Below are positions 45,081 to 50,025 of a stretch of 64,000 bases of DNA, piece after piece; within the stretch, counting starts at the first letter, position 1, and every line of letters starts with the position of its first letter. The DNA is taken from positions 2,598,001-2,662,000 of the forward strand of contig NZ_CP036250.1 of NCBI RefSeq assembly GCF_004300825.1. The letters are read 5' to 3'. Origin of the DNA: Egicoccus halophilus. Lineage in GTDB: Bacteria > Actinomycetota > Nitriliruptoria > Nitriliruptorales > Nitriliruptoraceae. The notes below the pieces were generated by a model that was not told the DNA's origin, made no database searches, and was given only the letters and a program-made list of their open reading frames with translations. The position numbers and the translations under genes were made by a program.

Positions 45081-48000
45081 TCAGTCCACGTTGGCGGCGC
45101 CGCCGGGCTCGACGGAGGCGACCCGCTCCATCTCGGTCTTCGGGGCGATCCGCCACAGCTTGGTGGCGGCCTGGTCCCAGTCGGTCAGCAGACGCTGGGC
45201 GTTGACCGAGCCGGTGAGGGTGGCGTGGCGTTCGACGAGCTCCCGGACCTGGGCGAGCTGTCCACCGTTGGGACGGTGGGCCTCGACCAGCTGCCGGTTG
45301 ACGTGCGCGAGCAGGTCGCCGGTCGTGTCGAGCACGTAGCACTCGCCGCCGCTCATGCCGGCGCCCACGTTCTGTCCGGTCGGGCCGAGCACGACGACGG
45401 TGCCGCCGGTCATGTACTCGCAGGCGTGGTCTCCGGTGCCCTCGACGACCGCCGTGGCGCCAGAGTTGCGCACGGCGAAGCGTTCGCCGGCGCGTCCGGC
45501 GACGAACAGCTCACCGCTGGTGGCGCCGTACAGGACGGTGTTGCCGACCAGCACCGGGTCGCCCGCGTCGTCGTGCGGGGCCCGGATCACCAGCCGCCCG
45601 CCCCCGAGCCCCTTGCCGACGTAGTCGTTGGCCTCGCCGTCGAGGACGAGCTCGACGCCGCGGCTGACGAAGGCCCCGAAGGACTGTCCGGCCGAGCCGG
45701 TGAACCGCAACCGGGCGAGCCCGTGCGGCTCGGCGTCGCCGAACTCGAGCCCGATGGCGCCACCGATACGGGCACCGACGGTGCGGTCGGCATTGGCGAT
45801 GTCGTAGGTGAACTCGGTGATGCCGCCGAGGAACACCGTCTCGAGCGCGTCGTCGAACGCCCGGTCACCGAGTTCGCTGCGCGGGTCCTGGATCGGCTCG
45901 CGCGAGACGAACGAGCGGGCGCCGATGCCGGGCTCGACGAGCAGCGGGGTGACGTCGAGCCGGGCCGCACGGCCCTCGAGGTCATCGCGGGGTTCGAGCA
46001 GGTCGACCCGGCCGACCGCGTCGTCGAGGCTGCGCAGCCCGAGCTCGGCGAGCAGGTGGCGGACCTCCTCGGCGACCATCAGCAGGTAGCCGGCGACCAT
46101 CTCGGGCGTGCCGACGAACTTGTCGCGCAGGTCGCGGCGCTGGGTGGCGATGCCGACCGGGCAGGTGTCGCGGTGGCAGGCGCGGGCCATGATGCAGCCC
46201 TCGGCGAACAGTGCGGCGGTGCCGAACGAGTACTCGTCGGCGCCGAGCAGCGCGGCCTTGAGGATGTCGTGGCCGGTCTTGAACCCGCCGTCGACGCGGA
46301 GCCTCACCCGCCCGCGCAGCCCGTTCTCGCGCAGGGTGCGCTGGACCTCGGCCAGCCCGAGTTCCCACGGCATGCCGGCGTGCTGGATCGAGGACAGCGG
46401 CGAGGCGCCGGTGCCGCCGTCGTTGCCGGAGATGTGGATCGAGTCGGCCAGTGCCTTGACCACGCCGGCGGCGATGGTGCCGATGCCAGCTGCGGCCACC
46501 AGCTTGACGTCGACCTGCGCCTGCGGGTTGACCTGCTTGAGGTCGAAGATCAGCTGTGCGAGGTCCTCGATCGAGTAGATGTCGTGGTGCGGCGGCGGGC
46601 TGATCAGCGTCACGCCGGGCGTGGTGTGCCGCAGCCGGGCGATCTCGTCGGTCACCTTGTGGCCGGGGATCTGGCCGCCCTCGCCGGGCTTGGAGCCCTG
46701 CGCCATCTTGATCTGGAGCAGCTCGGCGTTGGCGAGGTAGGCCGGCGTCACGCCGAAGCGTCCGGAGGCGACCTGCTTGATGCGGCAGTCGAGGTCGCGC
46801 TCGCTGCCGCGGGTGGCGAAGCGGGCCGGGTCCTCGCCGCCCTCACCGGAGTTGGCCCGACCGCCGATCAGGTTGAGTGCGGCCGCCAACGTCTCGTGAG
46901 CCTCGGCCGACAGCGCACCGTGCGACATCGCTCCGGTCGAGAACCGGCGGGCGATGGCGGACGCCGGCTCGACTTCGTCGAGGGGGACGGCGCCACCGGT
47001 CGCCCGCGGACGCAGGAAGTCGCGTGGGTAGGCGACCGGCCGCGATCGCACGGTCTCGGAGAACACCTGGTAGAGGTCGTAACGCCCCTGTTCGGACGCC
47101 GCCCGCAACAGCTGGGCGGTGCGACCGTCGACCTGGTCGACGTCGGAGCCGGGCAGCAGGTCGTCGGGGGCGTCGAGGGCGAACGGGTCGGTCCTGGGAC
47201 GGCGGCCGAGCCCGAGCGTGTCGTGCAGCGCGTCGATGACCGGCTTGTTCATGTCGTGGTACTCGCCGCCCTTGCGCCACTTGATGATGCCGGGGCTGGG
47301 CAGGTCGGGCAGGGCGTCGTCGGCGGCGGCGAACGCCTCGGCGTGCTGGGCCAGGACGTCCTCGGCGAGGTCGTCGAGCGTCAGGCCACCGAGCGTCGAC
47401 ACGGTGCCGGTGAAACAGCGTTCGACGACGTCGGGTCCGAGCCCGAGCGCCTCGAAGATCTGGGCGCTGCGGTAGCTGTCGAGGACGGAGATGCCCATCT
47501 TGGACATGATCTTGAGCACGCCGTCCTCGACGGCGTTGCGGTAGCGCTCCTGGGCGACGTTGGCGGTCGGGCTGTCGCCACCGATGCGGCCCTCGTCGGC
47601 GAGGTCGGCGATGGTCTGCAGCACCAGCCGCGGCACGATCGCGTCGGCGCCGTAGCCCAGCAGCGTCGCGGCGTCGTGGGTCTCGCGGGCCTCGTCGGTC
47701 TCGGCGACGATCGAGGTACGCGTGCGCAGACCTTCGTCGAGCAGGTGCTGGTGCACGGCACCGACGGCGAGCAGGATCGGCACGCGGCAGTGGTCCTCGT
47801 CGACCCCGGCGTCGGAGACGACGACGATGCCGGCACCGGCGCGTACGTGGGCGGCGGCCTCCCGGCCGAGGCGGTCGAGCGCATCACGCAGCCCGGCCGG
47901 GCCGTCGGCAACGGGGAAGGTCGCGTCGACCGCCATCACCGCGAACGGGATCTCGGGGTCGAGCACGAGACGCTGCAGGCCCTCCGGGTACAGGAAGAAC

Positions 48001-49772
48001 GACCCGAGCTCGAGCAGCCGCGCCGCCTCGGGACGCTCGGTCAGGATCGGTTCGCGCGGCCCGAGCAGGGTCCGCAGGCTCATCACCTGCGACTCGCGGT
48101 AGTGGTCGATGGGTGGGTTGGTGACCTGGGCGAAGCGTTGCTTGAGGTAGTGCGAGACGGGCCGGCGCACCTGGCTGAGCGGCTCGATCGGGGTGTCGTC
48201 CCCCATCGAGGAGATCGTCTCCTTGCCCTGCGTCGCCATCGGCCGCAGGATCGAGATGACCTCCTCCTTGGTGAACCCGAACGCGAGCTGGCGTCGTTGC
48301 AGGTCCGCCGGCGCGCTCTCGACCGGCAGGCCCGCCCGCACCGGCTGCAGGTGCTGGTGCAGCCACTCGCCGTACGGCTGGCGCCGGGCGAGCTGCAGCT
48401 TGATCTCGAGGTCCTCCTGCAGGCCGCCCTCGTCGGGGTCGACGCACAGCATCTGGCCGGGGCCGAGGCGTTCCCGACGGATGGTGCCGTGCTCGGCGGA
48501 CGGCGTGCTGGTGGGCACCGCGCCGACCTCGGAGGAGGCGACGACGGTGCCGTCCTCGCACACGTGGTAGCGCAGCGGGCGCAGGCCGTTGCGGTCGAGC
48601 GTCGCACCGACGCGACGCCCGTCGGTGAAGATCAGTCCGGCCGGGCCGTCCCACGGCTCGACCAGGCCGGCGTGGTAGCGGTAGAAGTCGCGGACGTTCG
48701 GGTCGAGGTCACGGGCGCCCTCCCACACCTGCGGGACCAGCATCGCCTGGGCGTGGCGGACGTCACGACCGCCGCGGACCAGCAGTTCGAGTCCCTGGTC
48801 GAGCTTGGCGGAGTCGGACTGGTCGTCGTCGACCACCGGGACGAGCAGCGAGGGCTCGACCCAGTCGCTGCCGTCGACCGAGAGCGACCCCTCGACGAGC
48901 TGTCCCTCACGGGCGCGCATCAGGTTGCCGTTGCCGGCGATGGTGTTGATCTCGCCGTTGTGGCACAGCATCCGGAACGGCTGCGCCCGCTCCCAGCTCG
49001 GGGTGGTGTTGGTCGAGAACCTGGAGTGGAAGATCGCGAGCGCGCTGGTGAAGCGCTCGTCGTCGAGGTCCGGGTAGAAGGTGCCGAGCTGGTCGGCGTT
49101 GGCCATGCCCTTGTAGGTCACGGTGACGAACGAGCACGAGGCGGCGTAGAAGCGTGCCCCGGCGGCCTCGCAGTTCTTGCGGGCCCGGCGGCGCAGGCGG
49201 TAGGCGACCCGTTCGGCCTGGCGGTCGTCGACGGGGCCGTCCTCGCCGTCGGGGCGCACGAACAGCGCCTGCTCGAGAGCCGGCTGCACGGCGGCGGCCA
49301 TCTCGCCGATGACCGACGGGTCCGAGGGCACCTCGCGCCAGCCGACGAAGCGCACGCCCTCGGCGGCGCAGGCCTTCTCGAAGGCGCCACGGGCGGTCGC
49401 CCGGTCCTGCTCGGCCTCGGACGTCGTGCCGGGCGTGAGGAACAGGAACGCGACCCCGAGCGCCTCGGCGGGGACGTCGGCCGCGCCGAGCTCCGCCGCC
49501 CAGGTGGCGACGAGGTCGCGCGGGATCTGCGTCAGGATGCCGGCACCGTCCCCGGACAGCCCGTCGGCGGCCACCGCTCCGCGGTGCTCGACGCCGTACA
49601 GGCCCTGCAGCGCCTTGGCGACGATGCTGCGCCGCGGTCGACCGTCGACGTGCGCCACGAACCCGATCCCGCAGGCGTCGCGTTCACCACGCGGGTCGAA
49701 CGCGGTGGCGCGGGCGGCGCGACGCGCCGCCGGCGAGGCGTGGTCGGGCGGAGGGAGGTCGACGGAGGTCAC
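45081..49772 (-). CDS. gltB: Glutamate synthase (NADPH) large subunit
   Basis: A 1563-residue enzyme that turns glutamine and 2-oxoglutarate into two glutamates. The class II amidotransferase nucleophile is Cys34 (DACGIGFVA), so about 33 residues would be removed. Then come the central domain, the FMN/synthase domain (GEGGEDPARFATRGSERD; KPGEGGQIPGHKV), the 3Fe-4S cysteines in CHRDTCPVGIATQ, and the C-terminal beta-helix domain with GATSGELFVAGRAGERFAVRNSGA. The GTG start follows GAAGG by 7 nt. The partner gltD is not in the window, though it usually follows gltB. Its leader holds an intrinsic terminator (see 49887-49921). Confidence 0.96.
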   Translation of the reverse strand: MTSVDLPPPDHASPAARRAARATAFDPRGERDACGIGFVAHVDGRPRRSIVAKALQGLYGVEHRGAVAADGLSGDGAGILTQIPRDLVATWAAELGAADVPAEALGVAFLFLTPGTTSEAEQDRATARGAFEKACAAEGVRFVGWREVPSDPSVIGEMAAAVQPALEQALFVRPDGEDGPVDDRQAERVAYRLRRRARKNCEAAGARFYAASCSFVTVTYKGMANADQLGTFYPDLDDERFTSALAIFHSRFSTNTTPSWERAQPFRMLCHNGEINTIAGNGNLMRAREGQLVEGSLSVDGSDWVEPSLLVPVVDDDQSDSAKLDQGLELLVRGGRDVRHAQAMLVPQVWEGARDLDPNVRDFYRYHAGLVEPWDGPAGLIFTDGRRVGATLDRNGLRPLRYHVCEDGTVVASSEVGAVPTSTPSAEHGTIRRERLGPGQMLCVDPDEGGLQEDLEIKLQLARRQPYGEWLHQHLQPVRAGLPVESAPADLQRRQLAFGFTKEEVISILRPMATQGKETISSMGDDTPIEPLSQVRRPVSHYLKQRFAQVTNPPIDHYRESQVMSLRTLLGPREPILTERPEAARLLELGSFFLYPEGLQRLVLDPEIPFAVMAVDATFPVADGPAGLRDALDRLGREAAAHVRAGAGIVVVSDAGVDEDHCRVPILLAVGAVHQHLLDEGLRTRTSIVAETDEARETHDAATLLGYGADAIVPRLVLQTIADLADEGRIGGDSPTANVAQERYRNAVEDGVLKIMSKMGISVLDSYRSAQIFEALGLGPDVVERCFTGTVSTLGGLTLDDLAEDVLAQHAEAFAAADDALPDLPSPGIIKWRKGGEYHDMNKPVIDALHDTLGLGRRPRTDPFALDAPDDLLPGSDVDQVDGRTAQLLRAASEQGRYDLYQVFSETVRSRPVAYPRDFLRPRATGGAVPLDEVEPASAIARRFSTGAMSHGALSAEAHETLAAALNLIGGRANSGEGGEDPARFATRGSERDLDCRIKQVASGRFGVTPAYLANAELLQIKMAQGSKPGEGGQIPGHKVTDEIARLRHTTPGVTLISPPPHHDIYSIEDLAQLIFDLKQVNPQAQVDVKLVAAAGIGTIAAGVVKALADSIHISGNDGGTGASPLSSIQHAGMPWELGLAEVQRTLRENGLRGRVRLRVDGGFKTGHDILKAALLGADEYSFGTAALFAEGCIMARACHRDTCPVGIATQRRDLRDKFVGTPEMVAGYLLMVAEEVRHLLAELGLRSLDDAVGRVDLLEPRDDLEGRAARLDVTPLLVEPGIGARSFVSREPIQDPRSELGDRAFDDALETVFLGGITEFTYDIANADRTVGARIGGAIGLEFGDAEPHGLARLRFTGSAGQSFGAFVSRGVELVLDGEANDYVGKGLGGGRLVIRAPHDDAGDPVLVGNTVLYGATSGELFVAGRAGERFAVRNSGATAVVEGTGDHACEYMTGGTVVVLGPTGQNVGAGMSGGECYVLDTTGDLLAHVNRQLVEAHRPNGGQLAQVRELVERHATLTGSVNAQRLLTDWDQAATKLWRIAPKTEMERVASVEPGGAANVD

Positions 49773-49886
49773 GGGAAGGCCTTCGACTCAAGGCGCGGCG
49801 TCGATCGACGCGCGCACGAACGGCAGGAACCAGCAGGCCGACGTCGAGTGGCGGCGCCACGCGAGATGGTCGCCGCCGGAGGCACG

Positions 49887-49921
49887 AAAAAACGGCGCCC
49901 CGTCGTGTCGGGAGCGCCGTT
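49887..49921 (-). terminator. Intrinsic terminator in the gltB leader
   Basis: Read on the - strand, an 8-bp stem AACGGCGC...GCGCCGTT plus an inner 4-bp CCCG/CGGG stem (one bulged base, 6-nt loop) is followed by six U residues. On the + strand no U-run follows, so it works only toward gltB. No - strand gene lies upstream. The only TAnnnT box seen on this strand (TAGGCT, 49933-49938) is before the hairpin, and none occurs between it and the gltB start. An attenuator is therefore possible. Confidence 0.65.
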
Positions 49922-50025
49922 GCTCGTCGACAAGCCTACCGGTCCGCCCGGCCGGATGTCCATCCAGGAAGGTGCGGACGCGCTGCCTAGAGTCCGACCG
50001 CCGACCCACGAGAGGAGCGACGCCC

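Follow-up and report, generated by a model that had tools for sequence, protein, structure and literature searches.

A near-invariant hairpin ahead of the glutamate synthase gene of Egicoccus halophilus looks like an ancient RNA switch

The window, by which we mean the whole 64-kb stretch of DNA that was analysed, carries on its minus strand gltB, the gene for the large subunit of glutamate synthase, an enzyme that forms a main route of ammonium nitrogen into metabolism. The product matches the Pfam domains GATase_2, Glu_syn_central, Glu_synthase and GXGXG, each far above the cut-off, and is therefore a full GltB. A preliminary description of this DNA had placed a hairpin with six U residues, reading toward gltB, in front of the gene; the hairpin is real and lies at 49887–49921 on the minus strand. 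No gene ends upstream of it on that strand, as had also been stated, the neighbour on the far side being a divergent plus-strand gene, enoyl-CoA-hydratase-like (named by eye from its sequence). The features of the locus are as follows.

49957–49962, minus strand: −35 box TGGACA, from the sequence, 18 nt before TAGGCT
49933–49938, minus strand: −10 box TAGGCT, with TANNNT conserved among relatives
49912–49925, minus strand: hexaloop hairpin GAGC[AACGGC]GCTC of ANTAR type, a conserved 14-mer and presumed antiterminator, from fold and conservation
49887–49921, minus strand: intrinsic terminator, stem AACGGCGCTC/GGGCGCCGTT plus some inner pairs, from fold against shuffles
49921–49912, minus strand: 5′ arm of the terminator, AACGGCGCTC
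49900–49891, minus strand: 3′ arm of the terminator, GGGCGCCGTT
49892–49887, minus strand: six-U tract
49773–49886, minus strand: remaining gltB leader, 114 nt up to the GTG, with no conserved competing element by inspection
45081–49772, minus strand: gltB, glutamate synthase large subunit, 1563 aa, GTG start, from open reading frame and Pfam

The TAGGCT box, which the preliminary description had pointed out beyond the hairpin, belongs to a conserved arrangement. Of 59 unique relatives, 46 have a TANNNT 6–12 nt 5′ of the element (2.3 ± 1.4 in shuffles), and in 10 further leaders of the 59 a −10 box is found 16–28 nt ahead of the 14-mer. A match of at least 4/6 to TTGACA at a spacing of 16–19 nt accompanies it in 26 of those 46 leaders, compared with 6.3% of shuffles. 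The conserved element begins at 49925, so that the start of the hairpin falls within a few nucleotides of the predicted +1. Because the hairpin is directly 3′ of the TGGACA-18-TAGGCT pair, the predicted gltB mRNA opens with it, and it makes up the first ~40 nt of the transcript. A start between hairpin and gltB, which had been raised as a possible objection, is not indicated, the conserved predicted promoter lying upstream of the hairpin. A 64-aa ATG open reading frame (49963–49769, minus strand) covers the hairpin and at its end overlaps gltB by GTGA. It is probably untranslated, since the predicted transcript does not include its start, which precedes the −10 box.

The 41-nt element folds at −23.2 kcal/mol (z = −5.1) and the terminator fold alone at −21.8 kcal/mol; in each case none of 200 shuffles (dinucleotide shuffles for the former) is as stable. 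The whole gltB leader folds at a z of −1.4 only. The GC-rich terminator stem is followed by six U, and this T6 is the sole run of at least six T or at least six A in the window, which is 72.9% GC, bearing out the rarity of U-runs remarked on earlier. The isolated 14-mer folds as a 4-bp stem closing the hexaloop AACGGC (−4.0 kcal/mol). Its positions 5–14 double as the 5′ arm of the terminator and the hexaloop and terminator folds are thus mutually exclusive. The GGCGCC segments downstream, formerly suggested as competitors of the terminator stem, are not supported in this role: they are made after the termination point and, by inspection, have no conserved counterpart in the leaders of relatives. 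The competitor of the terminator is the hexaloop hairpin, which is built from the same 5′ letters. It is very likely that the gltB leader is regulatory and conserved and that its two structures exclude each other.

Leaders of gltB were gathered from named contigs and from the relatives of the window. Of 180 loci entered, 36 were unscored as they had no N-terminal gltB match, and the core hairpin was present in 84 of the 144 scored; most of the 60 loci without it come from non-actinobacterial genomes. Dropping copies with identical first 45 nt left 66 loci, 59 of terminator type (including one Bacillota leader, L070) and 7 of GGGC/GTGC type. The 14-mer is identical in 46 of the 59, and its pairs 3–12 and 4–11 are invariant. 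Conservation of the hairpin among close relatives, which had been put forward as a test, is found throughout: within the same family and order (30 loci, L107 being left out as it is cut by the contig end) all 29 leaders with enough upstream sequence contain the 14-mer, 28 as GAGCAACGGCGCTC and one as AAGCAACGGCGCTT. It stands 6–9 nt after TANNNT; a spacer of variable length comes next, and most leaders then have the complementary arm. A nearly identical 14-mer also precedes gltB in distant Actinomycetota of many other families. Among 20 class-level leaders beyond the order, 13 have the 14-mer at no more than two mismatches and three (L195, L199, L200) have a diverged form, while in the remaining four (L191, L196, L201, L203) it is not clear.

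Both folds leave a mark on the pattern of substitutions. At least 9 of the 10 terminator pairs can form in 50 of the 59 unique leaders, compared with 5.6% in shuffles of the downstream sequence, a count taken over an unselected set, whereas the covariation alignment (A1; 45 of the 59, with at least 9/10 pairs and a short loop) was chosen for pairing. In that alignment the terminator stem covaries, with 9 double-change cells against 1.9 in shuffles, and none of 500 column shuffles reaches its score. Pairing of the small hairpin is kept in 98.3% of cells of A1, where percentages of this kind lean towards structure, with few changes; its 4-bp stem covaries weakly within the terminator-type set (one double-change cell). 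Across classes its variants stay paired (GAGC/GCTC, AAGC/GCTT, GGGC/GCCC, GTGC/GCAC). In 52 of the 59 leaders U13 is opposite G in the terminator; a C would strengthen this wobble pair, yet U is retained, which the A2-U13 pair of the small hairpin explains. Conservation extends to the 5′ GAG, though the terminator makes no use of it. Of the indications that the small hairpin has a role, the retention of U13 is the clearest.

The part downstream of the 14-mer is less uniform. The window and families f6 and f44 have a strong U-tract, but many Nitriliruptorales have a poor one, and only 32 of the 59 relatives have at least five U in nine positions. Overlap of the 3′ arm with the likely GTG start is seen in one genome (G010, L097), and with a GGAGG ahead of an ATG in another (G033, L110), both starts having been assigned by eye. 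From these overlaps and the variable U-tracts it appears that the 14-mer is constant while the part it controls varies. A constant element joined to a varying expression platform is also the plan of riboswitches and protein-read leaders.

The element is confined to gltB to a high degree. Across 396 genomes of the phylum there are 49 exact copies of the 14-mer, 34 of them upstream of gltB; the remaining 15 are at the chance level given by a reversed control pattern (17). A covariance model built from 45 leaders gives 44 matches at E ≤ 1e-6 in the 396 genomes, from 9 families, and inspection of the context of each places all 44 directly upstream of gltB. As the model was trained on many of the same leaders, the new information in this result is that there are no strong matches elsewhere and that gltB matches not seen before were recovered (G194, G103, G080, G090, G076, G125 and G243, with G194 and G103 being genomes of named loci already within the model). 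In the genome of the window the exact 14-mer is found at gltB only; four places with one mismatch were inspected, such copies being expected by chance. One of these, GAGCAACGTCGCTC (L115:1501–1514; 711648–711661 of the genome), is in the groES–groEL gap, 79 nt before groEL, the genes being named by eye. Two other model matches in this genome were rejected: that at 3890941 looks like an ordinary terminator behind a gene of the opposite strand, and that at 1440458, with the start of an open reading frame 54 nt further on, is inside long frames that are open on either strand.

Some copies in other positions are recorded here for their own sake. The only plausible exact copy outside gltB is in G090 (L208, minus strand, 2001 from the start of the locus), where the 14-mer and a short GC hairpin stand 65 nt before a sufB-like gene (by eye); in the same genome a variant box stands ahead of gltB (L308). 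Within a single genus whose genomes are small (L305, L306 and L307 from G210, G180 and G229) GAGCAAAGGCGCTC and a terminator are conserved before an HdrB-like gene, again named by eye, a second target of the element. A second gltB paralogue within the class, ~45% identical (L212–L225), has AACGGC hexaloops of GGGC/GCCC type in several leaders, L218, L219 and L224 among them, without an evident terminator.

A search of the window against Rfam gave no match at the gathering score, the best below it having an E-value of 0.069 on the other strand. A known RNA family or riboswitch was therefore rejected, the matches below the gathering score being chance matches only. The element does resemble the RNA targets of ANTAR proteins. 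The EutV box, AGCAANGRRGCUY, overlies the 5′ part of the eut terminators and forms a hexaloop whose first base is A and whose fourth is G, as described by Ramesh 2012 (PMC3369931). The window sequence AGCAACGGCGCUC matches this box at 12 of 13 positions, its loop AACGGC has the A and the G where they belong, and the hairpin shares letters with the 5′ arm of the terminator, as P2 should. Among the 59 unique relatives G4 is invariant (59/59), while A1 is present in 51 and replaced by G in the other 8. This agrees with the structure of EutV with RNA reported by Walshe 2022 (PMC8934654), in which G4 is a base-specific contact, A1 is uncontacted and one hexaloop is the minimal site; single hairpins are bound by EutV at 3–6 µM.

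A second hexaloop, P1, is absent in the lineage of the window, there being no room for it between promoter and box, so that membership among the ANTAR antiterminators is incomplete. When P1 was sought upstream in the 59 leaders, P1-like hairpins were seen in 10, mostly before the predicted +1 and mutually dissimilar, and they are not conserved; with the −10 box 6–12 nt ahead of the 14-mer in 46 of the 59, most leaders cannot have P1 within the transcript. Here either one hexaloop is enough or a different partner is used. In Acidimicrobiia-type gltB leaders the classical tandem ANTAR layout is found before the same target gene: 8 of 10 have tandem hexaloops (0.7 expected), these ten loci having been picked for showing a first hexaloop and tested for a second close behind. 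In three of this type (L026, L027 and L031) an outer stem such as CCGGGGC/GCCCCGG seems by eye to surround the tandem hexaloops, in the manner of a three-way junction.

The genome of the window has six ANTAR matches, one of which is a REC-ANTAR protein, encoded near position 2056790 of the genome. Its best solved relatives are 1s8n and 6wsh, which we take to be Rv1626 and EutV, respectively. In the alignment with EutV it keeps the RNA-contact residues R142, K143, K147, K149, E160 and M172 (residue numbers in the author's count, shifted by two), and Tyr164 is replaced by Phe. It is the natural candidate for the reader of the leader, judged from these residues. The presence or absence of ANTAR genes cannot discriminate between explanations, since all 61 relatives have them, as do all 15 well-assembled genomes in a group chosen because they have the motif; no ANTAR gene was found in two motif genomes that are 64% and 68% complete. 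A REC-ANTAR gene lies directly 3′ of gltB in G072 and G086, which are of one genus, and ~2.5 kb after gltB in G099, from another genus of the same family; adjacency of this kind was seen in that one family only. In G061 (99% complete) and G165, which also carry the leader, the only ANTAR found is GAF-like by eye and not of REC type, and a single universal REC-ANTAR reader is thus not supported. In two other cases (L268 from G035 and L269 from G029) the sole ANTAR is a REC-ANTAR protein, followed on the same strand by a gene resembling that of a polar amino-acid ABC binding protein.

The box is not restricted to Actinomycetota. The Peptococcaceae gltB leader L070 has GAGCAATGGCGCTC and a terminator, and its genome has an ANTAR gene beside a glutamine synthetase gene (named from sequence). 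In the Bacillota order to which L070 belongs the box is enriched (539 against 264 for the reversed control in 61 genomes), and in the leaders examined, box and terminator lie ahead of glnN, gltB and amtB-glnB (genes by eye). No second hexaloop was found upstream in these leaders, except for tandem whole units and one weak case, L352. One example of the former is a pair of box and terminator units 47 nt apart (L351:494 and L351:541) before amtB-glnB.

We consider it the best overall explanation, with a probability of about 0.68, that glutamate synthase is under ANTAR-type antitermination through one hexaloop. In the default state the 14-mer would pair with GGGCGCCGTT to give an intrinsic terminator ~40 nt from the start, and transcription would halt before gltB. 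An active ANTAR protein would grip the emerging hexaloop, with G4 of the loop as the main contact, and the bound hexaloop would withhold its letters from the terminator stem so that RNA polymerase continues into glutamate synthase. The most likely reader would be the REC-ANTAR response regulator of the genome, a relative of EutV and Rv1626/PdtaR, and the likely signal would be nitrogen or glutamine status. We infer the direction of control (off by default, released by the protein) and the nitrogen signal from what is known of the family. Attenuation of glutamate synthase, which the preliminary description had proposed with the acting signal left open, gains support, as structure and conservation fit a leader switch for which an ANTAR protein can now be named as candidate reader.

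In the same two-state switch the reader of the hexaloop could also be a metabolite, a small RNA or an RNA-binding protein that is not of the ANTAR type. The single-hexaloop layout is unlike that of the characterised ANTAR antiterminators, the invariance of all 14 letters (identical in 46/59) goes beyond what contact with G4 alone needs, and the sole ANTARs of motif genomes differ in architecture. Against this stand the 12/13 match to the EutV box, the invariant G4 and the tandem hexaloops of sister leaders, together with the REC-ANTAR gene behind gltB in G072 and G086 and the nitrogen genes in Bacillota; for a metabolite aptamer a 14-nt hairpin is, moreover, very small. We regard a non-ANTAR reader as rather unlikely and an ANTAR reader as the best-supported mechanism, and a likely one.

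As another alternative, the 14-mer might be a DNA operator for a transcription factor, the palindrome GAGCNNCGNNGCTC over the start site, with the hairpin incidental or a plain insulator. The imperfect palindrome, the strict conservation and the position at about +1 in most relatives would suit an operator; since, however, the −10 box stands anywhere from 6 to 28 nt away and a separate 3′ arm, 6–37 nt off, covaries with the 14-mer, we think this very improbable. An ordinary terminator or insulator against stray leftward transcription would account for the strong hairpin and U-tract of the window, and a stabiliser of the 5′ end for the poor U-tracts of many relatives, in neither case with regulation. 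Such an element would hardly sit downstream of a conserved gltB promoter, nor be specific to gltB in 44/44 model matches, nor keep U13 and the GAG preceding the stem, neither of which a terminator needs, and it would be surprising if this were the answer. Least credible, to the point of being nearly negligible, is attenuation by ribosomes on a leader peptide or by a downstream GGCGCC competitor. The 64-aa frame does cover the hairpin and GGCGCC segments are present, but with the frame starting upstream of the −10 box and the terminator beginning at about +1 there is no room for a leader peptide, and the GGCGCC segments are transcribed past the termination point, with no conserved counterpart seen. 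No translated short open reading frame lies between predicted start site and terminator, and a leader-peptide attenuator was rejected on this ground.

If ANTAR-type antitermination by a single hexaloop is correct, the control of glutamate synthase in deep-branching Actinomycetota would be a 40-nt RNA switch. With near letter-for-letter conservation in distant bacteria the gltB hairpin looks like an ancient RNA on/off switch. We would put at even odds the broader proposal that a single hexaloop at the 5′ end of the mRNA switches the terminator without P1, that this is an old and widespread switch of nitrogen assimilation (gltB in deep Actinomycetota; glnN, gltB and amtB-glnB in Bacillota), and that in some relatives it acts on the ribosome-binding site. 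According to Walshe 2022 (PMC8934654) what single-hexaloop sites do has yet to be settled; the gltB leaders bear on this question as a large natural set, since their promoter geometry is fixed and P1 is hardly possible in them. They also supply a candidate target for the actinobacterial REC-ANTAR proteins of Rv1626/PdtaR type. Our literature search returned no report that connects ANTAR to gltB or to single hexaloops, or leader attenuation to gltB, and the supplementary target tables of PMC8164766 and PMC3369931, outside its scope, may list some of these leaders.

Among the known systems, the eut leaders of Enterococcus faecalis, read by EutV/EutW, share with the gltB leader the hexaloop, the AGC/GCU stem, G4 and the letters held in common with the 5′ arm of the terminator. 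They differ in having the second hexaloop, P1, 5–12 nt upstream, where none fits between promoter and box of gltB. As described in PMC3369931, the characterised ANTAR antiterminators carry two hexaloops, and P1 is required in vivo, its deletion abolishing induction by EutV. The actinobacterial ANTAR RNAs of Mehta & Ramesh 2021 (PMC8164766), 5′ UTR hexaloops read by ANTAR proteins, are from the same phylum as the gltB leader, but curation there demands two hexaloops; the main text of that paper does not name glutamate, Nitriliruptor or Acidimicrobiia. The nasF (NasR) and amiE (AmiR) leaders are cases of nitrogen-linked ANTAR antitermination (PMC3369931), as is proposed here, although they have two hexaloops and different genes and sensors, where gltB has a single hexaloop. 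In Desulfotomaculum reducens, ANTAR RNAs were predicted at the glutamate synthase genes using a dual-hairpin model (Ramesh 2012, PMC3369931). The target gene and class of box are the same as in the leaders described here, most of which, in contrast, have one hexaloop per terminator, and the gltB, glnN and amtB-glnB leaders of Bacillota may belong to the same kind of regulon as the Desulfotomaculum reducens RNAs.
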